DNA from: Clostridiales bacterium VE202-21
GTDB taxonomy: Bacteria; Bacillota; Clostridia; Lachnospirales; Lachnospiraceae
Length of the DNA: 64,000 nucleotides
NCBI GenBank assembly: GCA_000509105.1
Contig: BAIF02000054.1
Span: forward strand, 1 to 64,000
Reading direction: 5' to 3'
Shown here: positions 1,951-22,393 of the stretch, piece by piece
Position numbering within the stretch: the first letter of the stretch is position 1
How the letters are laid out: each line of letters starts with the position of its first letter
The notes under the pieces: model-generated
What the model saw: the letters and a program-made list of their open reading frames with translations, nothing else
Database searches by the model: none
What the model was told of the DNA's origin: nothing
Made by a program: the position numbers and the translations under genes

Positions 1951-1963
1951 TAAGATATAGACT

Positions 1964-1988: not shown

Positions 1989-2136
1989 CGATCTCCGAAA
2001 AAGTTTTGATTACATACTATGAAAAATGTGACACTTTTCTGAATATAGAGACATTAAAAAGATAACCAAAGATAGATAAAATAAAGACAAATAAAAGATA
2101 ACTGCATACCAAAAAGCAAAACAGGAGGTTAAGAAA

Positions 2137-3147: not shown

Positions 3148-3173
3148 GAATGGAAAAAGGAAAGGATAAAACG

Positions 3174-4661
3174 GTGAAGAAAAAGATATTAGAGTTTCGC
3201 CATGTCAGTAAAGTCTATCCTGGAGTCAACGCATTGTCAGATGTTTCCCTTGACTTGTACGAGGGAGAAGTCCTTGCGCTGATGGGCGAGAATGGCGCTG
3301 GAAAATCTACACTGGTAAAATGCATTACCGGCGCCAATGAACCTACCTCCGGAACGATCACTGCAGACGGACATGAATATACGAGAATCACACCGGCAGA
3401 CGCAAGAAGTCTTGGAATTGGGGCGGTTTATCAGGAGTTCACTTTGGTGCCGGAACTGCCGGTAGTAGAGAATGTGTTTATGGGGAATCTGCGTGGAAAC
3501 GGTATATTGGTAAATAAAAAACAAATGATCCAGGATGCGGAAAAAATCTTTCATGATTTTGGAGTTCCGATTGATCCGATGGCAATGGTAAGTTCCCTCT
3601 CTCCGGCTATGATGCAGATTGTAGAGATTGCAAAAGCAGTTTCTTTGAAGACCAGAATTCTAATCCTGGATGAGCCGACGGCGCCTCTTACGGTTAGAGA
3701 GGTTGATACACTGTTTTCTATCATCCGCAAGTTAAAGAAAGACGGTGTGTCTATCGTATATATCAGCCATAGAATGGAAGAAATTTTCGAAATTACGGAC
3801 CGTGTTGTTGTCATGCGCGACGGATGCTACATCTGTGAAATGGAGACGGAGATGACTTCCAGACCGGAACTGATCCGCGCCATGATTGGGAGGAAACTAG
3901 ATGACATTACGTACCCACACAGTTACTGCGCGAAGGATGAAGTTGTTCTTAAAGCAGACAATGTAAGCGGTAATGGCGTCAGTAACATCAGCTTCGAACT
4001 GCACAGAGGAGAAATCTTAGGCTTCGCCGGACTGGTGGGCGCCGGCAGGACAGAACTCATGAGCGTACTATTTGGCGACGTGAGAAAAGAGAATGGCAGG
4101 ATATATATCCATGGAGAAGAGGTGGATATCAGGCATCCATATGAGGCTATTAAAGTGGGCATTGGACTCCTGCCGGAGGACAGAAAGGGCAAAGGGCTCC
4201 TCCTTGATAAGCCTGTATTTGCCAACATCACACTTTCCAGCCTGATGAAGTACTGTAAAATGGGGAAAATCAATAAGGCAAAAGAACAGGAGCATGTGCA
4301 GGAATATGTAGAAACACTGAAGATCAAGACCCCCGGTATCTGGCAGGAGGCACAGTATCTTTCTGGCGGTAACCAACAGAAGCTGATCGTGGCGAAATGG
4401 CTGGATGTTGACAGTGATATCCTGATTTTTGATGAGCCTACCAGAGGAATTGATGTGGGAGCAAGATTCGAGATCTATCAATTGATGCATGAACTTGTTG
4501 AAAGCGGAAAATCGATTATTATGGTATCTTCGGATTTTGAAGAATTAGTTGGAATGTCAGACCGCATTATCATCCTTGCTGAGGGGCAGCTTGCGGGAGA
4601 GGCAGGCAGTGAGGAGTTTGATAAAGAAATACTGCTGGATTTGGCATCCGGCAGCCGCTAA
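3174..4661 (+). CDS. Sugar ABC transporter ATPase, RbsA/MglA type (two ABC domains)
   Basis: About 495 aa with two ATPase halves, as in RbsA/MglA. The first half has Walker A GENGAGKST, Walker B ILILDEPTAPL and a weak signature LSPAMMQ. The second has a degenerate Walker A (GLVGAGRTE), signature LSGGNQQK and Walker B ILIFDEPTRGID. One competent and one degenerate site is normal for the family. I prefer the GTG at 3174, which has AAGGA 7 nt upstream. The in-frame ATG at 3150, three bases after the previous stop, has no ribosome binding site but cannot be excluded (503 aa). The permease follows at 4672 with 10 nt between stop and start. Confidence 0.92.
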   Translation: MKKKILEFRHVSKVYPGVNALSDVSLDLYEGEVLALMGENGAGKSTLVKCITGANEPTSGTITADGHEYTRITPADARSLGIGAVYQEFTLVPELPVVENVFMGNLRGNGILVNKKQMIQDAEKIFHDFGVPIDPMAMVSSLSPAMMQIVEIAKAVSLKTRILILDEPTAPLTVREVDTLFSIIRKLKKDGVSIVYISHRMEEIFEITDRVVVMRDGCYICEMETEMTSRPELIRAMIGRKLDDITYPHSYCAKDEVVLKADNVSGNGVSNISFELHRGEILGFAGLVGAGRTELMSVLFGDVRKENGRIYIHGEEVDIRHPYEAIKVGIGLLPEDRKGKGLLLDKPVFANITLSSLMKYCKMGKINKAKEQEHVQEYVETLKIKTPGIWQEAQYLSGGNQQKLIVAKWLDVDSDILIFDEPTRGIDVGARFEIYQLMHELVESGKSIIMVSSDFEELVGMSDRIIILAEGQLAGEAGSEEFDKEILLDLASGSR

Positions 4662-4671
4662 GGAGAAAAAT

Positions 4672-5625
4672 ATGAATACAACAGTGTTGATAAAAATAAA
4701 AAAATTTGTCGCGCAGATTCTGCTATTGCTTATTATCATTATTTTTGCGGCAATGAAACCGGCTACGTTTTTTACGCTGGAGAATTTACTTACCATTATA
4801 AGACAGGTAGCTACCATGGGTATCGTAGCATTGGGTGTCTCATTCCTGATGCTGACCGGCAGCCTTGATTTTTCGGTCGGAAAAGTTTACGCATTTGCAG
4901 GCGTGGTGTGTGCACTTTTGTATAAAGCAGGAATATCAATATGGATATCGGTGCTGATCTCTGTACTGGCCTGCATAGGAATCAGCATGATAACAGGGTA
5001 TATTTCCATGAAATTTGGCATTCCGATGCTGATCGTATCGATTGCGATGATGCAGGTAGTGGATGGGCTGAACATGATTTTAACGGACGGAGCTACCATA
5101 TACGGGCTGCCGGAGAGTATCAAATTCCTTGGACAGAACTATATCCTGGGGATTCCTGTGGCAGTCATCGTGTTTGCCGTGCTGGCCCTGATTGTGGCAT
5201 TCATATTAAATAAAACATATCTCGGGCGATACTTATTCGCGGTAGGCGGCAATAATGAGACAGCGCGGCTCTCAGGCATCCATGTGAATAAAATCAAAAT
5301 GATTGCAAGCATACTCTGTGGATTCCTGACAGGAATCGCCGGCATTATTATGATGTCCCGTTCTTTTTCGGGAAGTCCCTATAGCGGGAGCAATATAGGA
5401 AATGACGTAATCAGCGCTGCGGTTCTCGGCGGTGTCTCCATCTCAGGAGGAACCGGAAAGACCAGCGGTGTTGTAACGGGCGTATTGATTATCGGGGTAC
5501 TTTCCCAGGGGCTCGTTATGATCGGCCTGAGCAGCAACTATCAGAATATGATCAAAGGTGCAGTTCTTATTCTGGCGGTTATTATGGATACACGGTCGAA
5601 AATTGTGAAGAAGGCAAGTGTATAA
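4672..5625 (+). CDS. Sugar ABC transporter permease, RbsC type
   Basis: A 317-aa polytopic membrane protein of the BPD_transp_2 family with about 8-10 hydrophobic segments. Typical motifs are ALGVSFLMLTGSLDFSVG near residue 55 and GTGKTSGVVTGVLIIGVLSQG near 270. The start at 4672 is chosen because AAGGAG lies 6 nt upstream; the frame is open further upstream into the ATPase gene, but that part is shadow coding. With 2137 and 3174 it forms a complete RbsABC-type importer. Confidence 0.93.
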   Translation: MNTTVLIKIKKFVAQILLLLIIIIFAAMKPATFFTLENLLTIIRQVATMGIVALGVSFLMLTGSLDFSVGKVYAFAGVVCALLYKAGISIWISVLISVLACIGISMITGYISMKFGIPMLIVSIAMMQVVDGLNMILTDGATIYGLPESIKFLGQNYILGIPVAVIVFAVLALIVAFILNKTYLGRYLFAVGGNNETARLSGIHVNKIKMIASILCGFLTGIAGIIMMSRSFSGSPYSGSNIGNDVISAAVLGGVSISGGTGKTSGVVTGVLIIGVLSQGLVMIGLSSNYQNMIKGAVLILAVIMDTRSKIVKKASV

Positions 5626-5670
5626 CAATGCTATGAATATAAGAACGATGAAAAGCGGAGAAAAACAAAA

Positions 5671-7359
5671 ATGACAGACTTAAGTAAAACACCCTTTCAT
5701 TTGGGAAAAACACAGCAGGAATGGGTAAAAAAGACATTAGGCCAGATGTCTGTGGAGGAGAAGGCCGGACAATTGTTCCTGGTGATCGGCCAGTCGGATC
5801 ATGATGAGGATATCCTGGATATGTACCGGGAATTTCAATTTGGCGGGATCATGTATCGGCCGGACCGGGCAGACAAATTAAAGAATAGAAATGATAAACT
5901 ACAGGCGCTGGCGAAGATCCCTGTGCTGATTGCAGCGAATCTGGAGGCAGGCGGAAGCGGCGCCGTACTGGAGGGGACAAACTTTGCAAGCCAGTTGGAA
6001 GCGGCAGCCACCGGTGACGTCCGCCAGGCATATCATCTGGGAGATATCAGTGCTCGGGAAGGGAGCGCGGTCGGAGTGAATCTGGCTTTTGCCCCTGTAT
6101 GTGATATCGACAGAAACTGGCGGAACCCAATTACGAATACAAGAACCTATGGAAGTGATCCGGAAATTGTCCTCAGTATGTGTGAGGCGTATATGGACGG
6201 TGCAGCGAAGAATGGCGTTGCAGTCTCAATCAAGCATTTCCCGGGGGATGGCTGTGATGAACGGGATCAGCATCTGGTAGCATCCGTCAATGACTTAAGC
6301 TGTGAAGAATGGGATGCCACCTATGGGAAGATATATAAAAGCCTGATAGAAAAAGGCGCCCAGACCGTGATGGCAGGACATATCCTGCAGCCCGCATACA
6401 GCCGCAATTTTAGTCCGGAGCTTACAGAGGAGCAGATACTTCCGGCCTCCTGTTCTAAAGAACTGGTTCAGGGCCTGCTGAGGGGAAAACTTGGATTTCA
6501 GGGAGTTGTCCTTACCGATGCCGCAAATATGCTTGGCTACTGCACAGCTATGAAACGAAGAGATCTGATACCGACAACAATCAATGCCGGCGTTGATATG
6601 ATACTATTTGGCAAGAACCTTGCGGAAGATCTTTCCTATCTGATCGATGCAGTGCGTACAGGAGTCGTGAGCGTGGAGCGGCTTGATGAGGCAGTGACGC
6701 GTGTTCTGGCATTGAAAGCTTCTCTGGGGCTTCACGAAAAGAAACATTTTACTGCGGACAATTACCGCGGGCTGATCGCCGCACCAGAATCTTTGAGGCT
6801 GGCAGCAGAGTGTGCGGATCAGGCAATTACATTAGTAAAGGATACGCAGAATCTGCTCCCGGTTACGCCAAAAAAGCACAGACGGGTATGGCTCCATGTA
6901 AACGGGGATAAGCCGGGATTTACCGGCGGCAGCCGCTGCCGGGAAATGGTCATTCGCGCTTTGCAGAAGGCGGGATTTGAGGTAGATGTCTATGATGCCG
7001 AACATACAACAATGGAAGAGACAGTCGTTTCTACGGAGGAGATTGCGAAGAAATATGATGTCATCATGTATTTTTCCAATATCATCAATGCCAGTTACCA
7101 GACAACAGCCCGGATTCAATGGCAGGGCGCAGTGGCGCAGGAGGGACCGTATTTTGTAAAAGAGGTTCCTACCCTGATGGTATCTCTGGGAAATCCATAT
7201 GGATTTGCAGATGCACCCATGATTCCGACCATTATCAACACATACCACGTATCCCAGACAATCATCGATATGGTAGTCGAAAAGATCATGGGCAGGAGTC
7301 CTTTTAAAGGCATTTCTCCTGTAGATCCTTTCTGTGGAATGTTTGGAACCACCCTATAG
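5671..7359 (+). CDS. Glycoside hydrolase family 3 protein, NagZ-type, intracellular
   Basis: 562 aa with no signal peptide. The GH3 N-terminal TIM barrel covers about 1-350. The nucleophile is D283 in GVVLTDAANM. The loop KHFPGDG (188-194) is followed by a D199-x-H201 dyad, the acid/base arrangement of NagZ-type enzymes that act on beta-N-acetylglucosaminides. Some GH3 enzymes with this His were reported to be phosphorylases, so hydrolase versus phosphorylase is open. A smaller C-terminal domain follows. The gene lies 45 nt after the permease and just before a beta-phosphoglucomutase, so it probably acts on the imported glycoside in the cytoplasm. Confidence 0.88.
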   Translation: MTDLSKTPFHLGKTQQEWVKKTLGQMSVEEKAGQLFLVIGQSDHDEDILDMYREFQFGGIMYRPDRADKLKNRNDKLQALAKIPVLIAANLEAGGSGAVLEGTNFASQLEAAATGDVRQAYHLGDISAREGSAVGVNLAFAPVCDIDRNWRNPITNTRTYGSDPEIVLSMCEAYMDGAAKNGVAVSIKHFPGDGCDERDQHLVASVNDLSCEEWDATYGKIYKSLIEKGAQTVMAGHILQPAYSRNFSPELTEEQILPASCSKELVQGLLRGKLGFQGVVLTDAANMLGYCTAMKRRDLIPTTINAGVDMILFGKNLAEDLSYLIDAVRTGVVSVERLDEAVTRVLALKASLGLHEKKHFTADNYRGLIAAPESLRLAAECADQAITLVKDTQNLLPVTPKKHRRVWLHVNGDKPGFTGGSRCREMVIRALQKAGFEVDVYDAEHTTMEETVVSTEEIAKKYDVIMYFSNIINASYQTTARIQWQGAVAQEGPYFVKEVPTLMVSLGNPYGFADAPMIPTIINTYHVSQTIIDMVVEKIMGRSPFKGISPVDPFCGMFGTTL

Positions 7360-7411
7360 CAAAAATAAAGGAAAGGGGCGGGAAGGATACCTTCCCGTCA
7401 ATAACATAGTC

Positions 7412-8122
7412 ATGAAATGGAAAGGAATCATTTTTGATCTGGACGGCGTCCTCTGTTCTACTGATCAATACCACTATATGGCGTGGAAGCGGGTGGCAGA
7501 TCAGCTGCCGGTTTACTTTGATGAGGAGATCAACCAAAGGTTAAGAGGCGTGTCCAGAGCGGAGAGTCTGGAGATTATTCTGGAAAAATATACAGGAACG
7601 CCTCTACATACGTTAGAAAAACAAAAGATACTTGCAGAAAAGAATCAGATATACAGGACGGCACTGGAGCAGATGAATGAGCAGGATCTGTCCGCAGAGG
7701 TGCGCGATACGATTTTAAGACTGCGGGAAAAAGGGTACTCTCTAGCGGTTGGGTCCTCCAGCAAGAATGCACGGTTCATTTTGGGGCGTTTGGGCCTGTA
7801 CGCAGCGTCTGCCGGGCATACCGGAAAAGAGGCAGACATGACAATTGAAAAAAAGACAGGTCTGGCTAATGTATTCGATGCGATAATAGATGGTACTCAG
7901 ATCACACATTCAAAACCTCACCCGGAAGTATTTCAAAAGGCTGCCGCAGAACTCGGATTAAAACCAAAGGACTGCCTGGTAGTGGAGGATGCCGCCGCCG
8001 GAGTGGAGGCGGCACATAGGGCCGGGATGGAGGCTGCCTGCTTGGGACAGGCGGGAAAAGATCATTTAGGGGATTATAACCTGGAGAACTTTAAGGATAT
8101 TTTAAGCGTCTTGAATGAATGA
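7412..8122 (+). CDS. pgmB: Beta-phosphoglucomutase (HAD superfamily)
   Basis: 236 aa. The HAD nucleophile motif FDLDGVLCSTDQYHYMAW is at the N-terminus. Motif II is GSSSKN, and motifs III/IV are SKPHPEVF and LVVEDAAAGVEAAH. The family converts beta-glucose 1-phosphate to glucose 6-phosphate. Between GRLGLYA and NVFDAIIDG there is about 20 residues of extra sequence compared with usual PgmB. The start at 7412 matches the family N-terminus. No Shine-Dalgarno is adjacent; a purine run (7367-7377) is separated from the ATG by a perfect 8-bp hairpin (7379-7397, ATA loop). An in-frame ATG at 7334 inside the GH3 gene is a less likely alternative. Confidence 0.87.
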   Translation: MKWKGIIFDLDGVLCSTDQYHYMAWKRVADQLPVYFDEEINQRLRGVSRAESLEIILEKYTGTPLHTLEKQKILAEKNQIYRTALEQMNEQDLSAEVRDTILRLREKGYSLAVGSSSKNARFILGRLGLYAASAGHTGKEADMTIEKKTGLANVFDAIIDGTQITHSKPHPEVFQKAAAELGLKPKDCLVVEDAAAGVEAAHRAGMEAACLGQAGKDHLGDYNLENFKDILSVLNE

Positions 8123-10666: not shown

Positions 10667-11527
10667 TTATAAGATATTCTGATTCAAAAGTCTCATTCTC
10701 TGTTCTACCACTTCACTGATTGCCTCTTTTCCAGCCTGGAATGTAGTAGTTACATTGTACCGGAAATCTTCTGCCTGCTGTACTTCGGCAATCCTCTTAG
10801 CCGCTGCTGTCACCAGATCTGTAGCTATATTTATCTTCGCAATTCCATGGTTTACAGCTTCAGCAATCTTATCCTGCGGAGTGCCGCTGCCGCCATGCAT
10901 GACGAGTGGGATAGACACTTTCTTTTCGATTTCCATTAATCTTTGTATATTAATTTCAGGCTTAAATGACTTAGGATATGCGCCATGCATGGTTCCAATG
11001 GAAACAGCCAGTGCGTCAATGCCGGTCTGCTCTGCAAAGTAAGCCGCTTCATCCGGATCTGTCTGAAAGGACTCCTCGACCGTTACATCCTCGTCCCCTT
11101 CATTGCCAGGGAGCCTCCCGAGTTCCGCTTCTACACTGACACCTGCAGCATGAGCGACCTTCACAACTTCTTTTGTAAGGCGGATGTTCTCTTCCAGAGG
11201 AAAACGTGATGCATCAATCATGACAGATGAGTAACCTGCCACAATAGCCTGCACAATGGCATCGTAGGAACGGAAGTGGTCTGCGTGCAGTGCAATCGGA
11301 ACATCCACAGTTTTTGCAACACTCTCGGCGATACGCGCAACATTCGCAAAGCCTCCCATAGATATTGCTTCACCTTCGCCGATAATATAGATAGCGGGCA
11401 GGCCAAGCTTCTGCGCAGTGTCTGCTATAGCTTTGGCAGAATCATAATTCCAGATCATAAATCCTCCAACTGCGCATTTGTTTGTACGTGCATTCTTTAG
11501 CATTTGGGTCATTGGTACAAGTGTCAT
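10667..11527 (-). CDS. Class II fructose-bisphosphate-type aldolase (ketose-bisphosphate aldolase)
   Basis: 286 aa, the usual size for GatY/KbaY-like class II aldolases. Zn ligands and substrate motifs are visible in order: HADHF, VEAELGRLPG, a His in GTMHGAYPK, MHGGSGTP and GIAKINIATDL. Such enzymes split a ketose 1-phosphate or 1,6-bisphosphate into DHAP plus an aldehyde; the sugar specificity is unknown. The start at 11527 is set by AAAGGAGG 8 nt upstream; the frame is open beyond it but that stretch is promoter. It is transcribed divergently from the glycyl radical enzyme operon and shares one operator with it, which ties it to the same pathway. Confidence 0.92.
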   Translation of the reverse strand: MTLVPMTQMLKNARTNKCAVGGFMIWNYDSAKAIADTAQKLGLPAIYIIGEGEAISMGGFANVARIAESVAKTVDVPIALHADHFRSYDAIVQAIVAGYSSVMIDASRFPLEENIRLTKEVVKVAHAAGVSVEAELGRLPGNEGDEDVTVEESFQTDPDEAAYFAEQTGIDALAVSIGTMHGAYPKSFKPEINIQRLMEIEKKVSIPLVMHGGSGTPQDKIAEAVNHGIAKINIATDLVTAAAKRIAEVQQAEDFRYNVTTTFQAGKEAISEVVEQRMRLLNQNIL

Positions 11528-11573: not shown

Positions 11574-11602
11574 TTGACAGATACAGAACTCGTTGCTATA
11601 AT
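11574..11602 (+). promoter_or_regulatory. Consensus promoter for the glycyl radical enzyme operon
   Basis: TTGACA (11574-11579), a 17-nt spacer and TATAAT (11597-11602): both hexamers match the sigma-A consensus exactly. The AACGTT operator lies just downstream (11612-11629), over the expected transcription start, which fits LacI-type repression. Confidence 0.88.
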
Positions 11603-11605
11603 TGT

Positions 11606-11634
11606 ATTATCGTTCATATTAACGTTCATGTCAA
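11606..11634 (-). promoter_or_regulatory. Divergent promoter for the aldolase with an operator in its spacer
   Basis: On the minus strand TTGACA (plus 11629-11634), a 17-nt spacer (11612-11628) and GATAAT (plus 11606-11611). The spacer contains ATGAACGTTAAT, nearly the same 12-mer as the operator at the LacI gene promoter (18159-18170). One bound repressor could close both divergent promoters. Confidence 0.82.
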
Positions 11635-11663: not shown

Positions 11664-13757
11664 ATGACGGAAGAGATTAAAGATATTAAAAAGTATATAA
11701 TAAACAAAAAACATGTGAAATTTAGATTTAATGCAGAAGAAACGGAAAAATCATCTATAAGAAAAAGCTCGGAAATATGCGGGATTGACAGGGGAACGCT
11801 GCAGAACCGCAAGAAGGTGCGCCTGTGTTCGCTGCTGGAAGCGGAAAAGCCGGCGTTCATACCCGGGATGAACCTTGTATTTATGCGAACAACGATTACA
11901 AACGGGTGTATCGTTAATACAGAAGAGGAAAAAGAGCTTAGAAATCTATATTATTTACATGAGAAGGGGCACGTATGTAATATCTCTCCCGATTACAGCG
12001 GGATATTGGCAGAGGGGTTCCAAAGGCTGGAAAGAAAAATTGCAGCAGCAAGGGAAGCACTGAAAGTTTCTGATAAAGATACAGCGGATAAATATGAATA
12101 TGCAGATATACTCGAAGAGATTATTGAAAGTATTTATGCATTTGTTGAGAAATATGCCGCCGCACTTGAGAGTGACGGGCGCGGGGAAAAAGCAGAGTCT
12201 TTGAGAAGAAGCGTCCGCTCCGGTGCGGAAAGTTTTCCCGAGGCGCTCCAGCTGTTGCGGCTCCTCCATTATCTGGCATGGCTGGAGGGAGAATACCATA
12301 TCGGGCTTGGACGGTTTGACCAATATCTGTATCCATATTACAGACAGGATCGTGAACTTGGCAGGATAACGGAAGATGAAGCGCTTTCATACATAGAAGA
12401 ATTCTTCTTGTCCTGCAACATTGATAATGACCTGTATCCCGGAGTCCAGCAGGGAGACAACGGACAGAGCCTGATGCTGGGAGGTGTGGACACAGAGGGG
12501 AATGACTGCTTCAACGAATTGTCTAAGCTGTGTCTGCAGGCCAGCAGGGAACTGAAGCTGATTGATCCGAAAATCAATCTGAGAGTGAACAGCAGGACGA
12601 AAATAAGTCAATACGAGGAAGCCACCAGACTGACAAAAGCAGGGCTGGGATTTCCTCAATACTCAAACGATGATGTTGTAATTCCGGCACTGCTGCGCTG
12701 GGGATATGAACCGGAGGATGCGCGCAGCTATACGGTAGCGGCCTGCTGGGAGTTCATCATACCGGGAAAAGGAATGGATATCCCCAATATTGAAGCCGTA
12801 TCATTCCCGAAAATCGTAAACCGGTGTGCAGAGAAATATCTGGCCGATACAGACAGCATGGAGCAGTTCTGCGAGATGTTTCTCAGGGAACTAAAGGCAG
12901 AAGTGGACAGTATTACGGAGAAAGTAGATTCTGTTTTTATGTTTCCAGCCCCATATCTATCCATGCTGATGGAGGGATGTGCGGAGAACCTCCGGGATAT
13001 CTGCGAGGGAGGGATCTATAACAACTATGGGCTACATGGAACGGGAATAGCATGTGCCGCAGATTCTTTATATGCACTTGAGAAGTTTTACTACGAAGAC
13101 AGAAGGATTTCGGCGGATCAACTGGTACACGCAGTACAGGAGGACTTTTCCGGTGAGGAGGATTACCTAAAGCTGGTGAGGGAAGAGATGCACCATATGG
13201 GAGACGGGGATCCGGAAGTAGACAAATACGGAATCTGGCTCCTGGATACATTTGCAAAGGAAGTGGAAGGGAGAAAAAACAAGCTGGGGGGTATATACCG
13301 GGCAGGAACTGGTTCCGCGATGTATTATATACGTCATGCAGAGGAACTTGGGGCTTCTCCGGACGGCAGACGGAAAGGAGAATATTTCCCGGCGAATTAT
13401 TCACCCGGACTTTCTGTTAAGACCAAGGGGCCGTTATCTGTAATTAAGTCATTTACGGCGCCGGATTTAAGTAAGGCAGCAAACGGAGGTCCGCTGACAC
13501 TGGAGTTCCATGACAGTGTATTCAGGGGAGAAGACGGGATAAAAAAGGTGGCGGCGCTCGTGCAGTTGTTCGTGAAAAATGGCGGACATCAACTTCAGCT
13601 GAATGCCATCAATGCAGGTACACTGAAGGATGCACAGAAAAATCCCGAAAATTACCGGAACCTGATCGTAAGAGTCTGGGGATGGAGCGCTTATTTTGTA
13701 GAGCTGGATAAAGTTTACCAGGATCATCTGATACGAAGAGCGGAATATACCGTATAA
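11664..13757 (+). CDS. Glycyl radical enzyme, pyruvate formate-lyase family, short variant
   Basis: 697 aa, shorter than the 750-850 aa usual for PFL, diol dehydratases or choline lyase. Core motifs are clear: GLGRFDQYLYPYY, GGVDTEGNDCFNELS, GLGFPQYSNDDVV, GGIYNNYGLHGTG and HQLQLNAINAGTLKDAQ. The thiyl-radical cysteine should be C361 in TVAACWEF, with a glutamate two residues later (E363). The C-x-E spacing is that of dehydratase/lyase GREs (GCVE), while PFL itself has CC. The radical glycine is G673 in RVWGWSAYFV, 25 residues from the end; Trp on both sides is unusual. Its activase follows 16 nt downstream. The substrate is not assignable: the neighbourhood suggests a diol or a deoxy/anhydro sugar intermediate. 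Confidence 0.9.
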   Translation: MTEEIKDIKKYIINKKHVKFRFNAEETEKSSIRKSSEICGIDRGTLQNRKKVRLCSLLEAEKPAFIPGMNLVFMRTTITNGCIVNTEEEKELRNLYYLHEKGHVCNISPDYSGILAEGFQRLERKIAAAREALKVSDKDTADKYEYADILEEIIESIYAFVEKYAAALESDGRGEKAESLRRSVRSGAESFPEALQLLRLLHYLAWLEGEYHIGLGRFDQYLYPYYRQDRELGRITEDEALSYIEEFFLSCNIDNDLYPGVQQGDNGQSLMLGGVDTEGNDCFNELSKLCLQASRELKLIDPKINLRVNSRTKISQYEEATRLTKAGLGFPQYSNDDVVIPALLRWGYEPEDARSYTVAACWEFIIPGKGMDIPNIEAVSFPKIVNRCAEKYLADTDSMEQFCEMFLRELKAEVDSITEKVDSVFMFPAPYLSMLMEGCAENLRDICEGGIYNNYGLHGTGIACAADSLYALEKFYYEDRRISADQLVHAVQEDFSGEEDYLKLVREEMHHMGDGDPEVDKYGIWLLDTFAKEVEGRKNKLGGIYRAGTGSAMYYIRHAEELGASPDGRRKGEYFPANYSPGLSVKTKGPLSVIKSFTAPDLSKAANGGPLTLEFHDSVFRGEDGIKKVAALVQLFVKNGGHQLQLNAINAGTLKDAQKNPENYRNLIVRVWGWSAYFVELDKVYQDHLIRRAEYTV

Positions 13758-13773: not shown

Positions 13774-14493
13774 ATGAAGTCAGGAAGAATATTTGATATA
13801 AAGGAATTTGCCGTATATGACGGAGCGGGAATCAGGGTGACTTATTTCCTGCAGGGATGCCCTTTGAGATGCGAGTGGTGTCACAATCCGGAAGGCCAGG
13901 CAATGGAAGGCGGAAAAGTAAGAACCTCCGGGGAGGTTATTCGCGAGATCCTGGAGTATGCCTCTCTGTGGCAGGACTGTGAGGGGGGCGTCACATTTTC
14001 CGGCGGGGAGCCGCTGATGCAGGCAGGATTTCTGCTTGAGATTCTGGAGGGAATCGGAAATGTTTCAAAAGCGGTAGAGACTTCCGCCGCAGTATCAAAG
14101 GAGATATTCCAAAGCGTGCTGAATAGAGTGGACTTCGCTTATGTAGATTTGAAAATATATGATGAAGTATTACATATGCGTTATACAGGGTTAGGAAACC
14201 AGCTTATATTAGAGAACATACGGTGGCTGGCAGATACGGATATTCCATGTATCATACGGATTCCGATGATTCCCGGCGTGAGCGCAACGGAAGTGAATTA
14301 CAGGCAGACGGCCTCTTTTCTGGCGGATCTGCCCAGAAAGCTGCCGTTGGAGCTTCTTCCCTATAATACGCTGACAAAAGCCAAATATGACGCGGTTGGG
14401 CGGGAGTACAGCATTCAATTTCCGGAAGAAGGGCCCGTCTGTGACGATGTGCAGATTTTCCGAAGATGCGGATTATCTTGCAGGATATTATAA
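13774..14493 (+). CDS. Glycyl radical enzyme activating enzyme (radical SAM)
   Basis: 239 aa. The radical-SAM motif is CPLRCEWC (C29, C33, C36), spacing CxxxCxxC, followed by VTFSGGEPLMQ. It goes straight from HNPEGQ to the next helix, so it lacks the two-cluster ferredoxin insert that most GRE activases other than PFL-AE carry. It should make the glycyl radical on G673 of the upstream enzyme using SAM and one [4Fe-4S] cluster. The start has AGGGG and AGGT upstream. It is adjacent to and in operon with its substrate protein. Confidence 0.93.
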   Translation: MKSGRIFDIKEFAVYDGAGIRVTYFLQGCPLRCEWCHNPEGQAMEGGKVRTSGEVIREILEYASLWQDCEGGVTFSGGEPLMQAGFLLEILEGIGNVSKAVETSAAVSKEIFQSVLNRVDFAYVDLKIYDEVLHMRYTGLGNQLILENIRWLADTDIPCIIRIPMIPGVSATEVNYRQTASFLADLPRKLPLELLPYNTLTKAKYDAVGREYSIQFPEEGPVCDDVQIFRRCGLSCRIL

Positions 14494-14555: not shown

Positions 14556-15740
14556 ATGCAAAATTTTGAATTTCGGAATCCTACGAAGATTATCTTTGGA
14601 AAAGGAACGGAAAATGAAGTAGGAAAAGAATGCAGCCGATATTCAAAAAAAGTTCTGCTGCATTACGGTAAAGGAAGCGTCGTACGCAGCGGGCTGCTTG
14701 ACCGTGTGAAGAAATCACTGGAAGCAGCGGAAGTAGGGTATGTAGAGTTAGGAGGCGTACAGCCAAATCCGAGGATCAGCCTGGTCAGGAAGGCGATTGC
14801 ACTTTGCAAGAGGGAAGATGTCGGATTTATCCTGGCAGTGGGCGGCGGAAGTGTAATTGATTCTGCAAAAGCTACGGCAATGGGGCTGAAGTATGACGGG
14901 GATGTGTGGGATCTGTATGCAAAGACTGCAGAGCCGCAGGGGGCCGTGGGGGTGGGCGTAGTCCTGACCATTCCGGCGGCAGGAAGTGAATCCAGCAATT
15001 CCTCTGTTTTGACAAATGAAGAGGAAGGGTTGAAGCGTTCCTGCGATTCCGATGATATTTACCCGAAGTTCTCAATACTGAACCCGGAACTGACCTATTC
15101 CATGCCGAAATATCAGATCGCATGCGGCAGTGTGGACATCATGGCGCATATTATGGAGCGTTACTTTACCCAGACCATGCATAACAGTGTATCGGACCGC
15201 ATGGCGGAGGCGCTTCTGAGGAATATGATAGAGTTTGCGCCAAAGGCCTTGGAAGAGCCGTTAAATTATGATTACCGTGCAGAGGTCATGTGGAACGGCA
15301 CGCTGGCTCACAATAATCTGATTAACTGCGGCAGACAGGCAGACTGGGCAAGCCACCCGATCGAGCACGAACTGAGCACGGAATATGATATGGCGCATGG
15401 CGGCGGGCTGGCAATTGTTTATCCGGCATTTATGAAATACGTTTATAAGCAGAGACTTTCTCAATTCATCCGCTTTGCAACAGCTGTCTGGAATGTGGAA
15501 TATGACAGAAACGATCCTGCGGCAACCGCATATGAAGGAATCGTGAGGCTGGAAAGATTCTTCCGATCCCTCGGGCTTCCTACTACCCTGGAGGATGCGG
15601 GTCTTGACTATGATGACGCAAAGCTGCGCTTTCTGGCGGAACGCTGTGACAGAAATGAACTGGGAAAAGTCGGGCACTTTGTGGAGTTAGAGACAGACGA
15701 TGTGGAAAAGATTTATCATTTAGCAAAAAAGGAGGGATAA
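14556..15740 (+). CDS. Iron-containing alcohol dehydrogenase, YqhD/BdhA type
   Basis: 394 aa. The N-terminus QNFEFRNPTKIIFGKG is typical, and the nucleotide-binding loop is AVGGGSVIDSAKA. The metal ligands are D194, H198, H267 and H281, the same positions as in E. coli YqhD, which supports the start at 14556 (AAGGAG 9 nt upstream) over the ATG two codons earlier. The family reduces short aldehydes and hydroxyaldehydes with NAD(P)H. Here it probably reduces the aldehyde released by the aldolase, or the product of the radical enzyme. It ends 3 nt before the isomerase gene. Confidence 0.92.
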   Translation: MQNFEFRNPTKIIFGKGTENEVGKECSRYSKKVLLHYGKGSVVRSGLLDRVKKSLEAAEVGYVELGGVQPNPRISLVRKAIALCKREDVGFILAVGGGSVIDSAKATAMGLKYDGDVWDLYAKTAEPQGAVGVGVVLTIPAAGSESSNSSVLTNEEEGLKRSCDSDDIYPKFSILNPELTYSMPKYQIACGSVDIMAHIMERYFTQTMHNSVSDRMAEALLRNMIEFAPKALEEPLNYDYRAEVMWNGTLAHNNLINCGRQADWASHPIEHELSTEYDMAHGGGLAIVYPAFMKYVYKQRLSQFIRFATAVWNVEYDRNDPAATAYEGIVRLERFFRSLGLPTTLEDAGLDYDDAKLRFLAERCDRNELGKVGHFVELETDDVEKIYHLAKKEG

Positions 15741-15743
15741 GTT

Positions 15744-17168
15744 ATGGCGGACACAACAGTGAAGATCGGGTATGCAGCTACAAGAAGAGGCTGTTTTACC
15801 CATCCGGAGGGAAAGGAATACCGGGAGAAAATCAAAGAAACCGTTGCAGGCTGGGGCGCAGAGCTGGTTGATATCGGCGGTATCAATGAAGAAGGACTGC
15901 TTGTTAAACCGGCAGACGTGGAGAAAGCCGTGAAAGTATTCAAAGATGCAGATGTGGATGGAATCTTTATCGCCAACTGCAATTTTGGAGAAGAATCTGT
16001 GGCAGCCATGGTTGCAAAAGAACTTAACAAGCCAATTCTGCTGTGGGGACCGAGGGACAATACCCCGGCGCCGGATGAGGACCGCACCAGGGATACACAG
16101 TGCGGGCTGTTTGCAATCGGCAAGGCATTACGCCGTTATAATCTGCCGTTCACCTACATTCCCAATGTAGCACTGGAAGATCCCACATTTGAAAGAGGCT
16201 ACAAGTCATTTGCGGCAGTATGTTCGATCGTTAAGAACTTCAAAAAGACCAGAATACTGCAGATCAGCACCCGCCCGCAGCCGTTCTGGAGCGTGATATG
16301 CAACGAAGGCGAGCTGGTAGAAAAATTTGGGATTGAAGTATTCCCGGTTACAATCCAGGATGTAAAAGACATGACAGAAGAACTGGAGAAAACGGACAGT
16401 CCTCTGGTAAAGGAAGCAAGGGCTCGTTTTGAAAACAGCCTTTCTTTGGGCGGCATTTCAGAGGAACAGTTACTAAACAGCGTCCGCCTCTACGTGGCAG
16501 TGAAAGAATTGTGCAGGATCAACGGATGCAATTCCGTAGCAATCCACTGCTGGGGGCCGCTCCAGAAAGCGGTTAAGTCGGCAACATGCACCGTAAACAG
16601 CCTCCTGACGGAAGACGGGATACCGGTTGCCTGCGAAACAGATATTCATGGCGCAATTACATCTATTATTTTGCAGTCAGCGGTATTCTGCACGAAATCT
16701 ATTTTCTTTGCAGACCTGACAATCCGCCATCCGGAAAATGATAACGCAGAACTTTTGTGGCATTGCGGCAACTTCCCGCCTTCACTGGCAATAGAAGGGG
16801 CGGAACACAAAGTGGAACTGCTGTGCCAGGATCTGGGTCCGATGCCGACGCAGAACCATTGGGAAATCAAGCATGGCGATATGACAATATGCCGGTTTGA
16901 TGGAGACCATGGCGAATATCAATTACTCATCGGGGAAGGAAAAGGAGTGGAAGGACCGAAGACACGGGGAACCTACAGCTGGTTTGAAGTAAATGACTGG
17001 CCGATGTGGGAGGAGCACCTAGTAAAAGGTCCTTACATCCACCACTGTGCAGGCGTACATGGAAAAGTTGCACATATCTTGTATGAGGCCTGCAAGTACA
17101 TTGGCGTGAATGCCGACCCGGTTTCCCCCACAAAAGAGGAAATAGAAGCTTACTGGAGAGGGAGATAA
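15744..17168 (+). CDS. L-fucose/L-arabinose isomerase-like protein
   Basis: 474 aa, shorter than FucI (about 590 aa). The Rossmann-like N-terminal part has DVDGIFIANCNFGEES and LLWGPRD. The C-terminal barrel-like half has acidic/His residues that may bind Mn (VACETDIHGAITSI; FADLTIRHPENDNAELLWHC; YIHHCAGVHGKV). Proteins of this superfamily interconvert aldoses and ketoses, and here it should supply the ketose for the PfkB kinase directly downstream. The precise sugar is unknown. It has a GGAGG site upstream and sits inside the operon. Confidence 0.85.
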   Translation: MADTTVKIGYAATRRGCFTHPEGKEYREKIKETVAGWGAELVDIGGINEEGLLVKPADVEKAVKVFKDADVDGIFIANCNFGEESVAAMVAKELNKPILLWGPRDNTPAPDEDRTRDTQCGLFAIGKALRRYNLPFTYIPNVALEDPTFERGYKSFAAVCSIVKNFKKTRILQISTRPQPFWSVICNEGELVEKFGIEVFPVTIQDVKDMTEELEKTDSPLVKEARARFENSLSLGGISEEQLLNSVRLYVAVKELCRINGCNSVAIHCWGPLQKAVKSATCTVNSLLTEDGIPVACETDIHGAITSIILQSAVFCTKSIFFADLTIRHPENDNAELLWHCGNFPPSLAIEGAEHKVELLCQDLGPMPTQNHWEIKHGDMTICRFDGDHGEYQLLIGEGKGVEGPKTRGTYSWFEVNDWPMWEEHLVKGPYIHHCAGVHGKVAHILYEACKYIGVNADPVSPTKEEIEAYWRGR

Positions 17169-17183: not shown

Positions 17184-18140
17184 ATGGATGTTGTAGGAGT
17201 GGGATATCCTGTACAGGATATGCTTGTTAGAATCGAGCAGATACCAAAAGCGCGTGTCCATGTCCTGTCCAAAATACTTTCTTCCAGCTGGCAGGGAGGC
17301 GGCATGGTATCTACCGGGCTGGTAGCAGCCTCTGTACTGGGCGCATCCGCAGGAATGATAGGAGTAGTAGGCGGTGATCTGTACGGTAAGGCATGTATCA
17401 ATGATTTCCGGATGAACGGGGTTGACACAAGCCATCTTCTGATCGATGAAGGTGAGACAACAAATTATACTATTGTTTTGACGGAGACCTCTACTAAGGA
17501 ACGCTGTTTCGTGGCAAATGACGGGAGCAAGAGAGAGCTTGCCGTGGAGGAGCTTGATGAAGCATATATCCGACAGGCAAAATACCTGCTAATCACCGAA
17601 ATGGATGAGGTAAGCATCAGGGCTGCGGAAATTGCAAAGGCGAACGGTGTGAAGGTAGTGATAGATGCGGACCTGTATGAAAAAAGGACAATGGATCATA
17701 TTCATCTGATCGATGTATTTATCTGTTCCGAGGAATTTTATCGGGGACTCTTCCAGGATGAGAAGTACGTCATACATTGCAGGGAAATACAGGCAATGGG
17801 TCCGGAAGCAGCAGTCGTGACTCTCGGGGACAAAGGATGCAGGGGCGTTTATGGAGATACGGTCATTGATCAGAAGGCATTTACAGATATTGAGGTTGTG
17901 GATACCAATGGTGCGGGCGATGTTTTCCACGGCGCATTCATCTACGGGATGGCACAGGGATGGGAGCCGGAGTATATTGCCAGATTTGCATCTGCGGTGT
18001 CGGCTATAAAATGCACCAGACAGGGAGGAAGAGCTGGAATTCCAGATGCTGAAACCACTAAAAAATTCCTAGAAACTGGCAGGATCGACTATACTGAAAT
18101 CGACAAACGTGTAGAAATTTATAAAAATGGCTTATTTTAA
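17184..18140 (+). CDS. PfkB-family carbohydrate kinase
   Basis: 318 aa ribokinase fold. The N-terminal Gly-Gly motif is WQGGGMVSTGLVAASVLGA and the ATP/anion-hole motif is DTNGAGDVFHGAF, with catalytic base D246 (Asn replaces the usual Thr in DTxGAGD). It likely phosphorylates the ketose made by the isomerase, giving the aldolase substrate. A CGGAGGAAAC site precedes the ATG. It is the last gene before the internal LacI promoter. Confidence 0.9.
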   Translation: MDVVGVGYPVQDMLVRIEQIPKARVHVLSKILSSSWQGGGMVSTGLVAASVLGASAGMIGVVGGDLYGKACINDFRMNGVDTSHLLIDEGETTNYTIVLTETSTKERCFVANDGSKRELAVEELDEAYIRQAKYLLITEMDEVSIRAAEIAKANGVKVVIDADLYEKRTMDHIHLIDVFICSEEFYRGLFQDEKYVIHCREIQAMGPEAAVVTLGDKGCRGVYGDTVIDQKAFTDIEVVDTNGAGDVFHGAFIYGMAQGWEPEYIARFASAVSAIKCTRQGGRAGIPDAETTKKFLETGRIDYTEIDKRVEIYKNGLF

Positions 18141-18208: not shown

Positions 18209-19207
18209 ATGAATAATAGAAGAGTAACATTAAAAGATATCGCGGAAAAAACAGGATTTTCAATTAATACGGTTTCTCTGGCATTAAAAGGGCAGCGAGT
18301 CAGCGAAGAAACAAGAGATTTGATCATGAAGACAGCGGAGGAGATGGGGTATATCGGGAATGCCCTTGCAAGTTCCATGCGTTCCGGGCTTACAGGGACG
18401 ATTGCCATCATTGTTGGAGATATTGCCAACCCATATTTTTCGGCTATTATAAAGGGTACGGTCAATATGCTGAGTGCGAAACAGTACAGTACAATTATTT
18501 ACAATACAGAGGAGCGGGAGGACTATGAAAAAAGCAGCATCCTTTCGGCACTGCGACAGAATGTAGATGGAATTATGTACTGTCCGGTTGTAAAAGACGG
18601 GCCAAATACGGAACTGTTGAAAAAGTCGAATATTCCGTTTTTGATATTTGGAGGCGTCAGCCAGGATCCTGAAATTAATACTGTCTGCCTGGACGATGAA
18701 AAAGGCGGGTACATTGCCGCGAAATATCTTCTGGAAAGAGGGCATCGCGATATTGTATTTCTGAATGGACCGGATTATGCCCACAGCAGCAAGGAAAGAC
18801 TAAACGGCTATAAGCAGGCGCTGCTAGAAGCAGGCGTGCCATACGATGAAAATAAGGTGCTGCACTGCGACTTGAAAAACGACAAGCTGATATGGGATCA
18901 GGTCAAGTACCAGCTCAGCCAGGTCTTGGATTACACGGCTGTGATTGCATACAGCGATATGACGGCGATGCGGCTATATTCATTATTGGACAGCGAAGAT
19001 TTTAAGGATAAGGCGATAGGGGCTAAAGATATTGTAGGATTTGATAATGTTATGGCGACATTTCCTTTACCAATAAAGACGGCGAGCGTTGGTGCGAAAG
19101 ACATTAAAATGTCGGTCGTTGCGCCCAGTCTTCTTCTGGATCTGATACACGGAAATTCACAGGGCGTGAAAAAGATTGTGTTGGATGTAAAGGTCTATGT
19201 CCCATAA
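18209..19207 (+). CDS. LacI family transcriptional regulator
   Basis: 332 aa. The N-terminal LacI helix-turn-helix is VTLKDIAEKTGFSINTVSLA (with a hinge helix NALASSMRSG), followed by a periplasmic-binding-protein-like effector domain. An AGAGG lies upstream of the ATG. AACGTT-centred palindromes, a form many LacI proteins recognise, are present in its own promoter and between the divergent aldolase and radical-enzyme genes. The inducer is probably a sugar or sugar phosphate of the pathway. Confidence 0.93.
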   Translation: MNNRRVTLKDIAEKTGFSINTVSLALKGQRVSEETRDLIMKTAEEMGYIGNALASSMRSGLTGTIAIIVGDIANPYFSAIIKGTVNMLSAKQYSTIIYNTEEREDYEKSSILSALRQNVDGIMYCPVVKDGPNTELLKKSNIPFLIFGGVSQDPEINTVCLDDEKGGYIAAKYLLERGHRDIVFLNGPDYAHSSKERLNGYKQALLEAGVPYDENKVLHCDLKNDKLIWDQVKYQLSQVLDYTAVIAYSDMTAMRLYSLLDSEDFKDKAIGAKDIVGFDNVMATFPLPIKTASVGAKDIKMSVVAPSLLLDLIHGNSQGVKKIVLDVKVYVP

Positions 19208-19222: not shown

Positions 19223-19882
19223 ATGGAACCGATATATCATGTGACAGACGAGAAATTTACCCGTTACGGCAGAATTCTTAGCAGCTTTCCAGTTAAACGG
19301 CTGGCAGAAAAGGCGGCAGGCTTTGACCGTACCTTTGACGGGGTGAAATATGAACGTTCAATTGCAGAACTGGAAGAGCTGGAGGAATTTCAGCATATAC
19401 AGCGCTGGTTCGGCGGAGAGAGCAGGCTTCAGTGCGGACTTTGCTGGGGGCACAATGTAAAAATGAACGCAGTGGAATACCACCGTTCTTCCGAGATCAA
19501 TATCGGCGCAGAAGACATGATTCTGATGCTCGGTGATCTGAGGGATGTAAAAGACAACCAATATGATTCAAAATTGCTGGAATTGTTTTTCGTACCCAGG
19601 GAGACGGCGGTAGAGCTCTTTGGGACAACGCTTCATTTTGCACCCTGCCAGACATCAGATGTAGGCTTTAGTACGGTGATCATACTGCCGGATATGACAA
19701 ATGCACCTTTGAGTGAGAAAATCCGGGAGGAGATTCCGTTGAAGAAGGGAGAAGAAAGACTTTTATTCGGTAATAATAAGTGGCTGATCGCACACCCGGA
19801 ATGTGATGACGCAAAAAACAGCTTTGCTTATCCGGGAGTACAGGGGGAGAACAGAACCGCTGTATGGGACGGGATAGGATAG
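19223..19882 (+). CDS. DUF4867 family protein
   Basis: 219 aa, recognised as DUF4867 from the central block GLCWGHNVKMNAVEYHRSSE and the following AEDMILMLGDLRDV. The conserved His/Glu pattern and predicted beta-rich core look cupin-like, so a metal-dependent sugar isomerase, epimerase or lyase role is possible but unproven. It lies 15 nt after the LacI stop with an AAGGAG site and precedes an aldose epimerase, so it belongs to the sugar cluster. Confidence 0.75.
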   Translation: MEPIYHVTDEKFTRYGRILSSFPVKRLAEKAAGFDRTFDGVKYERSIAELEELEEFQHIQRWFGGESRLQCGLCWGHNVKMNAVEYHRSSEINIGAEDMILMLGDLRDVKDNQYDSKLLELFFVPRETAVELFGTTLHFAPCQTSDVGFSTVIILPDMTNAPLSEKIREEIPLKKGEERLLFGNNKWLIAHPECDDAKNSFAYPGVQGENRTAVWDGIG

Positions 19883-19940: not shown

Positions 19941-20924
19941 GTGAAGGAACAATTTTATTGTGAGACTGTGAAACATCAGGAGTATGGAGAGATTATAGTC
20001 TTAAAAAGTGAGGACAGAGAGTCAGGAAAAACGCAGAAAATATATCTTACGCCGGAATATGGCTTTAACTTGGCAAAGTATGAGGTTGATGGAGAAGACT
20101 TGATTTATACGATGCCGGATGTGTTGAGAGAGGAAGGATTTTCAGGCATTCCGATTCTTTACCCCACACCGAACCGTGTCAGGGATGCACAATTCCGATT
20201 TAAAGGGCAGAGTTATCTGCAGCAGAAAAAGGGAGAACGCAGATATTTGCACGGACTGGTTTACGATGAAAGATGGACAGCAGGCAGGCCTATGCTGACA
20301 GAGCAGGGAGCGCAGGTAAGCGCCTGGATTGACTTTGAAGAGGATAAAATCTGGTTTCAGAGCTTTCCGTGGAAGCACAGACTGACCGTTACCTGGAAAC
20401 TGAAAAGCAGCGGTATCCGCCTGGAATATGAAGTCCACAACCAGGACGAAAAGGAACTGCCGTACGGATTCGCAATACACCCATATTTTCCCGTAAAAGC
20501 ATATGGAGAGACAGCAGCAGTATGCGTACCGGCCAAGAAAATGTTTGAGAGTACGCAAGAGAGATTCCCTACAGGAAACATATTCGATATAACAGGTACG
20601 GAATATGACCTGTGTAAAAGCCGGATAGTTACGGAACTGAAACTAGACGACGTCTATACAGGACTTGGGAGAACAGAAAGCGAGATTCGTTATGGCAGCC
20701 ACGGTCTGATTTTGTCAGCATCAGAGGAATTTAAACAAATGGTAGTCTATACGCCGGAAATGGATTTCTTCTGCCTGGAGAATCAGACCTGCATGACAGA
20801 CGCGCATAATTTTTATGACAAGGGTTATAAAAACAGCGGAATTATTTTGGTCAGGCCGGGCGGCGTTCGCAGTGGATGGATAGAATTAGACAGTACCAGG
20901 ACAGGAACTCTTAATGAAAAGTAA
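19941..20924 (+). CDS. Aldose 1-epimerase family protein
   Basis: 327 aa, galactose mutarotase-like beta-sandwich. Motifs include PILYPTPNRVRDAQF, LHGLVYDE (catalytic-type His), PYGFAIHPYFPV (second His) and FFCLENQTCMTDAHNF (Glu in the usual C-terminal position). It would interconvert sugar anomers after uptake. The start is GTG, with AAGAAGGA about 10 nt upstream. The next gene, a binding protein, begins 24 nt after the stop. Confidence 0.85.
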   Translation: MKEQFYCETVKHQEYGEIIVLKSEDRESGKTQKIYLTPEYGFNLAKYEVDGEDLIYTMPDVLREEGFSGIPILYPTPNRVRDAQFRFKGQSYLQQKKGERRYLHGLVYDERWTAGRPMLTEQGAQVSAWIDFEEDKIWFQSFPWKHRLTVTWKLKSSGIRLEYEVHNQDEKELPYGFAIHPYFPVKAYGETAAVCVPAKKMFESTQERFPTGNIFDITGTEYDLCKSRIVTELKLDDVYTGLGRTESEIRYGSHGLILSASEEFKQMVVYTPEMDFFCLENQTCMTDAHNFYDKGYKNSGIILVRPGGVRSGWIELDSTRTGTLNEK

Positions 20925-20948: not shown

Positions 20949-22295
20949 ATGAGAAGAAAAAATTTATATTCAAGAATTGCAGCGGTTGTAATGTGTGTGG
21001 CAATGAGCGCGGCTCTGGTTGTTGGATGTGGTTCAGGAACAGATTCAGACGGCGGCGGAGACAGCGGAAAATCTGATAAAGGCGGCGGTGGAAAAGTCCA
21101 GACAGTAGAGATTCTGACACAGTTTGGTGAGGCTGGCAAAAAGGCAGGGCTTGAAGCAATCAGCAAAGAAGTGGAAAAAGAACACCCGGAGTATAAATTT
21201 GAAATTATCTGCCTGTCGTATGACAAGTACGTGGAACGGCTGAAACAGGAAATGTCTGCAGGGGATCCTCCGAGCATTTTTACGGGACGCCCGAAAGAAT
21301 TCCCGGAATTCGTAGAAGCGGGGCAGGTATTAGACCTTACGGATTATGATTTTATCAATGACTTTGACGAGAAACTCCGTGAAGAGGTAACGAAGGACGG
21401 AAAAGTATGGTCCGTACCTTACGATAAAGAGATTTACGGCGTATTTTACCGCCAGGAGCTGCTGGATGAGTATAATCTGGAAATCCCGACAACGAAAGAA
21501 GAATGGATTAAGGTATGCGACACCCTGAAAGAAAACGGTGTGACACCGGTTGCATTTGGCGGTGCAGATACCGATCCGTGTAACTATACACTGGAGACAT
21601 TCTGGGATGCGGCATTAATCAGCGGAGGCAATACAGACGCAATCCAGAAGGTAATGGACAAAGAAATCTCAATTAAAGAGGTTCCGGAATTCAAAACTGC
21701 CCTTAAGAATGCCTATGAGATGCTGATTCCTTATATCGAAGTAAACGATATGAGTATCACAAGAGACACGGCATACGAGAATTTCTGCTCACTTGACCGC
21801 GCATTTACAATCCACGGCAATTTCTGTGCCAGCATCCTGAGAGATGGTGCACCGGACGGAGAGATCGGGATCTTTCCTCTTCCATGGAGCGATGATCCGG
21901 CAGACGCTAAGCTCCGTTATGGCGTAGACGATGCAATGATGATTGCCGCAGAGGGGAATACGGAAGCTGCGATCGCATGGATGGAATATGCAACATCAAC
22001 AGACGGCCTGAGTATCTGGGCAGAGAACAGTAAATCTTATTCTGCATCTAAATTAGTTGGTGAGATTGAAAACCCGGATCCGATTAACCAGGACATTAAC
22101 AAATATTTTGACGCGGGCGAATACTATTTTAAGGGCGACCTGAAATATTTTGATGGAAGTTATCTTTCAGAATGGCAGAATATGGCGCAAAAATTTTTCT
22201 CAGACGGACTGGAGGCATATGGTAAAGGACAGAATTCAGAAGAATTCGTTACAAGTTTCCTCGACGAAGTGGATTCCAGATTTTCCGCTTTCTAG
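20949..22295 (+). CDS. Carbohydrate ABC transporter substrate-binding lipoprotein (family 1)
   Basis: 448 aa. The signal peptide has lipobox ALVVGC (C27), followed by a Gly/Ser/Asp-rich linker. The mature part is an SBP_bac_1 (MalE/MsmE-like) protein with VEILTQFGEAGKKAGLEAIS at its start and DPPSIFTGRPKEFPEF. The usual ligands are oligosaccharides or glycosides. It is the first gene of a MalEFG-type importer; GGGAGG precedes the ATG. Confidence 0.93.
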   Translation: MRRKNLYSRIAAVVMCVAMSAALVVGCGSGTDSDGGGDSGKSDKGGGGKVQTVEILTQFGEAGKKAGLEAISKEVEKEHPEYKFEIICLSYDKYVERLKQEMSAGDPPSIFTGRPKEFPEFVEAGQVLDLTDYDFINDFDEKLREEVTKDGKVWSVPYDKEIYGVFYRQELLDEYNLEIPTTKEEWIKVCDTLKENGVTPVAFGGADTDPCNYTLETFWDAALISGGNTDAIQKVMDKEISIKEVPEFKTALKNAYEMLIPYIEVNDMSITRDTAYENFCSLDRAFTIHGNFCASILRDGAPDGEIGIFPLPWSDDPADAKLRYGVDDAMMIAAEGNTEAAIAWMEYATSTDGLSIWAENSKSYSASKLVGEIENPDPINQDINKYFDAGEYYFKGDLKYFDGSYLSEWQNMAQKFFSDGLEAYGKGQNSEEFVTSFLDEVDSRFSAF

Positions 22296-22323
22296 CAGGA
22301 ACTGGATTACGGAGCTGATGTGA

Positions 22324-22359
22324 GTTTACGGGGGCATCTGTCCGATGCCCCGCGTAAAC
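22324..22359 (+). promoter_or_regulatory. Intercistronic hairpin between binding protein and permease
   Basis: A stem of 15 bp with one bulge (GTTTACG-GGGGCATC / GATGCCCC-g-CGTAAAC, loop TGTCC) and no following T run. Such hairpins after binding-protein genes are known to protect the upstream mRNA and give a surplus of binding protein over permease. Confidence 0.7.
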
Positions 22360-22393
22360 AGGCAGAAATGCCCGGGAAAGGAACGGTGGAAAA

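Follow-up and report, generated by a model that had tools for sequence, protein, structure and literature searches.

What does a glycyl radical enzyme (GRE) do when tryptophan stands beside both of its catalytic residues? The question is raised by a gene in the window analysed here, a stretch of 64,000 nucleotides from Clostridiales bacterium VE202-21 (contig BAIF02000054.1); many abundant gut GREs are of no known function (PMC11574389). At a probability of about 0.5, we read this enzyme as belonging to an apparently uncharacterised subfamily of GRE eliminases in which the radical site has been rebuilt; the member here would most likely cleave a C-O bond of a sugar or polyol and supply an aldolase pathway, with a substrate that we infer.

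A GRE with tryptophan on both catalytic loops

The gene (11664-13757, forward strand) encodes a 697-aa GRE, which its open reading frame, Pfam matches, predicted fold and membership of a clade of 59 assign to an ACWE/WGW subfamily. Its PFL-like domain (PF02901, E = 1.5e-83, 282 bits) and C-terminal Gly_radical domain (PF01228, E = 1.2e-19, 71 bits) both score above the cut-off, placing the protein in the GRE superfamily, and its start codon is supported by a 'gtgagg' Shine-Dalgarno sequence and consensus promoters. AlphaFold2, run with 59 sequences, returned a model (pLDDT 92.7, pTM 0.93) with a predicted ten-stranded GRE barrel that matches solved GREs of the PFL-like group at Z 30-41. The best matches, tied within error, are glycerol dehydratase (1r8w, Z 40.9), PflD (8yjo, 40.6) and propanediol dehydratase (5i2g, 40.5). 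As modelled, the fold is an ordinary GRE barrel.

The open reading frame and alignment locate the Cys loop, TVAACWEF (12732-12755, forward strand), with the thiyl Cys361 (codon 12744-12746), Trp362 and Glu363 of the CxE motif encoded by TGC TGG GAG. The Gly loop, RVWGWSAYFV (13671-13700, forward strand), identified in the same way and by the published fingerprint, carries Trp672, the radical Gly673 (codon 13680-13682) and Trp674. Both motifs thus read from the codons as the sequence-only reading had claimed. The published GRE fingerprint is RVXG[FWY] (PMC11528403); RVWGW, together with C361 as the Cys-loop cysteine, agrees with it.

We compared residues in 59 aligned subfamily members with those in 50 other GREs. 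Of the latter, 42 have V and one has W at position 362, and 44 have A and one has W at position 672, the exception being L005, the nearest branch, both times; at position 674, 44 have Y, six have F and none has Trp. The earlier claim that Trp is atypical at all three positions stands. Since Trp674 nevertheless fits the fingerprint, W362 and W672 are the strangest residues. The alignment to other GREs that had been proposed as a check revealed no characterised GRE with ACWE or WGW, and none of the characterised diol dehydratases found in the analysis has the motif.

The motif marks a widespread clade

Relatives were searched for in 61 related genomes and then, with the window GRE and the three orthologues found there as queries, in a GTDB-wide scan. 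The related genomes yielded three clear orthologues (47-49% identity), the next matches dropping to 34% or less; the scan added about 60 members at 38-51% identity, with other GREs at about 34% or below. The 59 aligned members are 38-51% identical and 636-705 aa long, and C361, W362, E363, W672, G673 and W674 occur in every one, giving A-C-W-E and W-G-W throughout. The motif is unusual, as the sequence-only reading had it, but is the invariant signature of a whole clade and not the oddity of a single enzyme. Retention of the CxE spacing, also claimed there, holds across all 59 members; CxE is the feature that GRE eliminases of known structure have in common (PMC8473560). The same conservation rules out chance or sequencing error as the source of the motif, and Gly673 in 59/59 rules out an aminoacyl radical enzyme with Ala, Ser or Thr replacing the radical Gly.

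Members come from Bacillota, Planctomycetota (including Thermoguttaceae), Bacteroidota, Spirochaetota and Verrucomicrobiota, with Treponema and other spirochaetes as well as Victivallales among them; a subfamily GRE is present in 11 of the 299 genomes from the window's own family. In a maximum-likelihood tree, a 22-member sample forms a single clade (SH-aLRT 98), which L005 joins at 99, a position made less sure by its long branch. Glycerol and propanediol dehydratases do not cluster with the subfamily, which stands separate, joined only by L005. All NCBIfam equivalog cut-offs (CutC, HypD, sulfopropanediol dehydratase, indoleacetate and hydroxyphenylacetate decarboxylase, PFL) are far from reached, HypD scoring 256 bits against a cut-off of 1100, and a phmmer search of solved GRE structures found none in the clade, the best score being 255 bits to PflD. 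The ACWE/WGW GREs are thus very probably a coherent clade, none of whose members is characterised in the sources available: an apparently uncharacterised but widespread group of radical enzymes, sensitive to oxygen, from bacteria of the gut and rumen.

The window's genome holds about 20 GRE matches. Two further GRE matches there contain an in-frame stop (TGA and TAG; G000:C111:28780-29154 and G000:C33:20254-20424) and are possibly decayed genes or sequencing errors.

Changes around the radical site

Profile alignment to 1r8w places Asn106 (11979-11981, forward strand) at the position of glycerol dehydratase His164 and Asn375 (12786-12788, forward strand) at that of Asp447, two residues which, from the 1r9d work, we take to be diol contacts. 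Asn106 is present in 59/59 members, with His in 33/50 other GREs; Asn375 is likewise invariant in the subfamily, the other GREs (n = 50) having Asp in 24 and Asn in eight. The window GRE therefore lacks both of the equivalents by which glycerol and propanediol dehydratases are recognised.

Further substitutions lie elsewhere in the barrel. A subfamily strand, D301-P-K-I-N305 (12564-12578, forward strand), aligns with a strand of the QPSLS type in other GREs, so that positions 301, 303 and 305 are D, K and N in place of Q, S and S types. Subfamily T612 corresponds to Asn in 49/50 other GREs, E614 to Lys in 43/50 and Q643 to His in 43/50. The alignment also shows a shortened GDNGQS loop (12453-12470, forward strand) that brings Gly267 to the position 94 residues before the catalytic cysteine (Cys-94).

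In CutC and HypD, Cys489 and Cys434, the cysteines given by their CxE numbering, each follow an aromatic residue by 94 positions. The aromatics at Cys-94 are CutC Phe395, HypD Phe340 and IslA Trp374, the last lying 94 residues before IslA Cys468 (PMC8473560). By our alignment, Phe or Tyr occupies this position in diol dehydratases and HypD, and Gly occupies it in PflD and in the window enzyme, which thus lacks a feature common in GRE eliminases but not universal. Because PflD also has Gly, we do not take the Cys-94 aromatic as defining GRE eliminases.

With the barrel aromatic lost at Cys-94 and Trps present on the Cys and Gly loops, the radical site appears rearranged, and we hypothesise that the loop Trps fill the space of the lost aromatic. 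In IslA, the Trp at Cys-94 is in contact with both the Gly loop and the Cys loop and modulates the amount of radical (PMC8473560); by analogy, it is plausible that the Trp residues alter pocket shape, as the sequence-only reading had proposed. Judged from the alignment, Asn106, Asn375, the D-P-K-I-N strand, Gly267 and Glu614 for Lys are larger changes than the loop Trps.

An operon of sugar genes

The GRE gene is preceded by a divergent promoter region (11574-11634) with TTGACA-17-TATAAT on the forward strand (11574-11602) and TTGACA-17-GATAAT on the reverse strand (11634-11606), which match the consensus at 12/12 and 11/12 positions and are the top two in 15.6 kb. The reverse promoter faces a class II aldolase of the ketose-bisphosphate type (10667-11527, reverse strand; PF01116, E = 1.6e-87; TIGR01859), whose true start lies near 11527, a longer reading frame overlapping the GRE promoter.

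Downstream of the GRE, on the forward strand, lies the partner activase expected of the superfamily, a 239-aa radical SAM protein with CxxxCxxC (13774-14493; TIGR02494). It lacks the auxiliary [4Fe-4S] ferredoxin insert, its linker being 39 aa long where that of most orthologues has about 82. The activases of L057 and L099 are shortened in this way as well, and that of L164 is short too (263 aa); all three are distant members.

The remaining genes, all on the forward strand, encode a YqhD-like Fe-containing alcohol dehydrogenase (Fe-ADH; 14556-15740; PF00465; PRK15138, E = 9e-91; start 14556 picked from the sequence), a fucose-isomerase-fold sugar isomerase distantly like SftI (15744-17168; PF02952; NF048012, E = 1e-33, under the cut-off), a PfkB sugar kinase (17184-18140; PF00294), a LacI-family regulator (18209-19207; PF00356, PF00532), a DUF4867 cupin-like protein (19223-19882; PF16161, E = 6e-65), an aldose 1-epimerase family protein or mutarotase (19941-20924; PF01263), an ABC sugar transporter (20949-24078; binding protein, PF01547, and two permeases assigned by homology to sugar permeases) and an aldo/keto reductase (24177-25139; PF00248).

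FGGY kinase and split transketolase genes are frequent neighbours of the isomerase's nearest homologues (48-51%). Such homologues occur in L168, L169, L170 and L171, gut genomes of the window's family, in what are possibly D-apiose clusters. The genes of a D-apiose cluster are apsI, aplK, aptA and aptB (PMC13001218), and the arrangement of the isomerase-homologue loci resembles it. Cupins like ureidoglycolate lyase or DUF4867 recur near clade members or the isomerase (L104:8445-8936, L156, L159 and window 19223-19882), the L104 protein matching both Pfam families. Elsewhere in the window, positions 47-8122 hold a second sugar-uptake cluster with an AraC-type regulator, a histidine kinase, an RbsB/A/C-type ABC transporter, a GH3 enzyme and a HAD phosphatase.

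Gene neighbourhoods across the subfamily

We compared 71 subfamily loci with 19 control loci of other GREs from the same scan. There are fewer controls than subfamily loci, and many of them are shorter; each marker was queried with a single sequence, and the query for bacterial microcompartment (BMC) shell genes is generic and self-written; the enrichment figures are therefore indications. LacI/AraC regulators occur in 31/71 subfamily loci and 0/19 controls (p = 2e-4), and in 19/46 versus 0/9 when loci of at least 16 kb are considered (p = 0.02). The listed glycoside hydrolases occur in 16/71 versus 0/19 (p = 0.02), an excess that is not significant in loci of at least 16 kb alone (p = 0.10). 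A tally of near against far Pfam neighbours gave a modest excess of AraC regulators (9 versus 2 of 118). Aldolases are not enriched (7/71 versus 4/19, p = 0.24), so the aldolase link depends on individual operons.

Apart from the activase, no gene was found to be common to most loci; many contain the GRE and activase alone, and neighbouring enzymes differ between loci. GH127 beta-L-arabinofuranosidase family genes lie near the GRE in L047, L049, L063 and L087, GH78 and GH88 in L100, GH106 in L083, and arabinofuranosidase-type proteins in L057 and L078. Genes for a DeoC aldolase, an aldo/keto reductase, a Zn-ADH and SMP-30 surround the GRE in L156 and L157, and L156 also has an FGGY kinase. The related loci L005, L099 and L164 lie among apparent polysaccharide-synthesis genes. 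This setting and the varied neighbours suggest that substrates may differ within the clade.

In L164 (8976-12887), the clade member adjoins a protein with a GlfT2 N-terminal galactofuranosyltransferase domain (PF17994, 3e-8), with the activase on the opposite side. In L166 (296-11118), which has the same GRE as L005, the neighbours resemble, by eye, genes of phosphonate and polysaccharide synthesis (phosphonopyruvate decarboxylase-like, nucleotidyltransferase, LicD-like and flippase).

Proposed reaction and its alternatives

An eliminase with a sugar-sized polyol as its substrate is the reading favoured by the CxE motif and the gene setting, and the neighbouring genes suggest that the enzyme takes oxygen off plant-derived sugars. 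The activase would place a radical on Gly673, from where it would move to Cys361; the thiyl would abstract hydrogen from an OH-bearing carbon of a sugar, alditol or sugar derivative, Glu363 would assist deprotonation of that OH, and cleavage of the adjacent C-O bond would leave a deoxy-sugar carbonyl. In the window, the isomerase and PfkB kinase would act on this product, and the co-regulated class II aldolase would then split it into triose phosphate and a short aldehyde, which the Fe-ADH or aldo/keto reductase would reduce for redox balance. More tentatively, the substrate may stem from plant polysaccharides (L-arabinose- or L-rhamnose-linked), as a free monosaccharide, an alditol or a related derivative that is dehydrated by radical chemistry to a deoxy-sugar, with the loop Trps replacing the barrel aromatic.

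This sugar-type reading draws on the retention of CxE and the radical Gly in 59/59, the changed diol contacts (H164 to N106, D447 to N375) and the loss of the Cys-94 aromatic to Gly, as in PflD, a GRE acting on an anhydrosugar phosphate (PMC12441222). It draws equally on the isomerase, kinase, mutarotase, ABC sugar transporter and ADH of the operon, the divergent aldolase promoter, the excess of LacI/AraC regulators and glycoside hydrolases, the GH127, GH78 and GH106 neighbours, and the two DeoC loci. Literature searches found no paper linking GREs with anhydroglucitol, and nothing relevant for glycyl radical with arabinose, rhamnose or pectin.

The motif by itself does not decide between this reading and its rivals. 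Membership of the diol dehydratases, judged by motif, was rejected on Asn at 106 and 375 and the separate clade in the tree, and survives as a rival in which an ordinary short-diol dehydratase ends a fucose/rhamnose-like route: isomerase, kinase and aldolase would give DHAP and an aldehyde, the Fe-ADH would make the diol, and the GRE would dehydrate it. The gene order, with Fe-ADH in the GRE operon, is compatible with such a route, CxE is retained, and the nearest folds include glycerol and propanediol dehydratases; yet both contact positions are Asn in 59/59, Fe-ADH occurs in only 2/71 subfamily loci, and BMC shell genes in none, against 2/19 controls. The same genome also encodes a canonical propanediol dehydratase elsewhere (L033, 985 bits against 5i2a), so the ACWE/WGW GRE is not needed for that reaction, and we consider this route unlikely.

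Ring opening by a YbiW/PflD-like C-O lyase, acting on a cyclic polyol such as an anhydro-sugar or on the phosphate of one and yielding a deoxy-ketose that an aldolase would cut, seems distinctly unlikely. It would suit the Gly that PflD, among the top folds at Z 40.6, shares at Cys-94, the fructose-6-phosphate aldolase FsaA adjoining YbiW, and the several aldolase classes near some subfamily members; the YbiW/PflD chemistry is summarised in PMC12441222. Against it, PflD and YbiW retain His at the 164 position and PflD retains Asp at 447, both Asn in the subfamily, sequence identity is low, the tree keeps the groups apart, and the window operon showed no PTS gene. Replacement of barrel residues fixed in other GREs (K by E614, N by T612, H by Q643, Q by D301) could instead point to different chemistry, such as C-C cleavage or sugar isomerisation with the CxE residues reused; the invariant Glu363 and the association of CxE with structurally known eliminases (PMC8473560) make this improbable.

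If the more tentative reading, radical dehydration of such a sugar or alditol from plant polysaccharides, is true, these enzymes would represent a new GRE reaction type and open an anaerobic route for sugars that has gone unrecognised among bacteria of the gut and rumen. The clade has its own radical-site architecture in gut, rumen and sediment anaerobes of several phyla, and the genes around it suggest carbohydrate chemistry. It also offers a natural experiment on what Trp next to the glycyl radical and the thiyl Cys does to radical transfer.

Comparison with known systems

The B12-independent glycerol and 1,2-propanediol dehydratases (1r8w, 5i2g, 9rco) share with the window GRE the barrel fold (Z 40-41), CxE, the radical Gly and a partner activase. 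Identity is about 25%, however, and they are 80-150 aa longer, read GCVEP and RVAGYS, and possess His164, Asp447 and the Cys-94 aromatic, none of which the window GRE has. The anhydrosugar-phosphate lyases PflD and YbiW are similar in fold (Z 40.6 and 38.8), in the Gly at Cys-94 of PflD and in the aldolase gene adjoining ybiW, as in the window; they differ in GCVE or GCIE, RVAGYS, His at the 164 position and, in PflD, Asp at the 447 position, and form separate clades. In the isethionate sulfite-lyase IslA, a Trp packs against the Gly and Cys loops, and the window GRE may do likewise, although the IslA residue is Trp374 at Cys-94, where the window GRE has Gly, its Trps being on the loops and its setting not that of a sulfonate. 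The nearest branch is the GRE of L005 (G046; about 676 aa; SACWEP/RVWGFS), which has Trp after the Cys and before the Gly like the subfamily, together with Asn106, D301, K303, Asn375 and Gly267; it differs in its 31% identity, in Phe after the Gly and in its place among apparent polysaccharide-synthesis genes.
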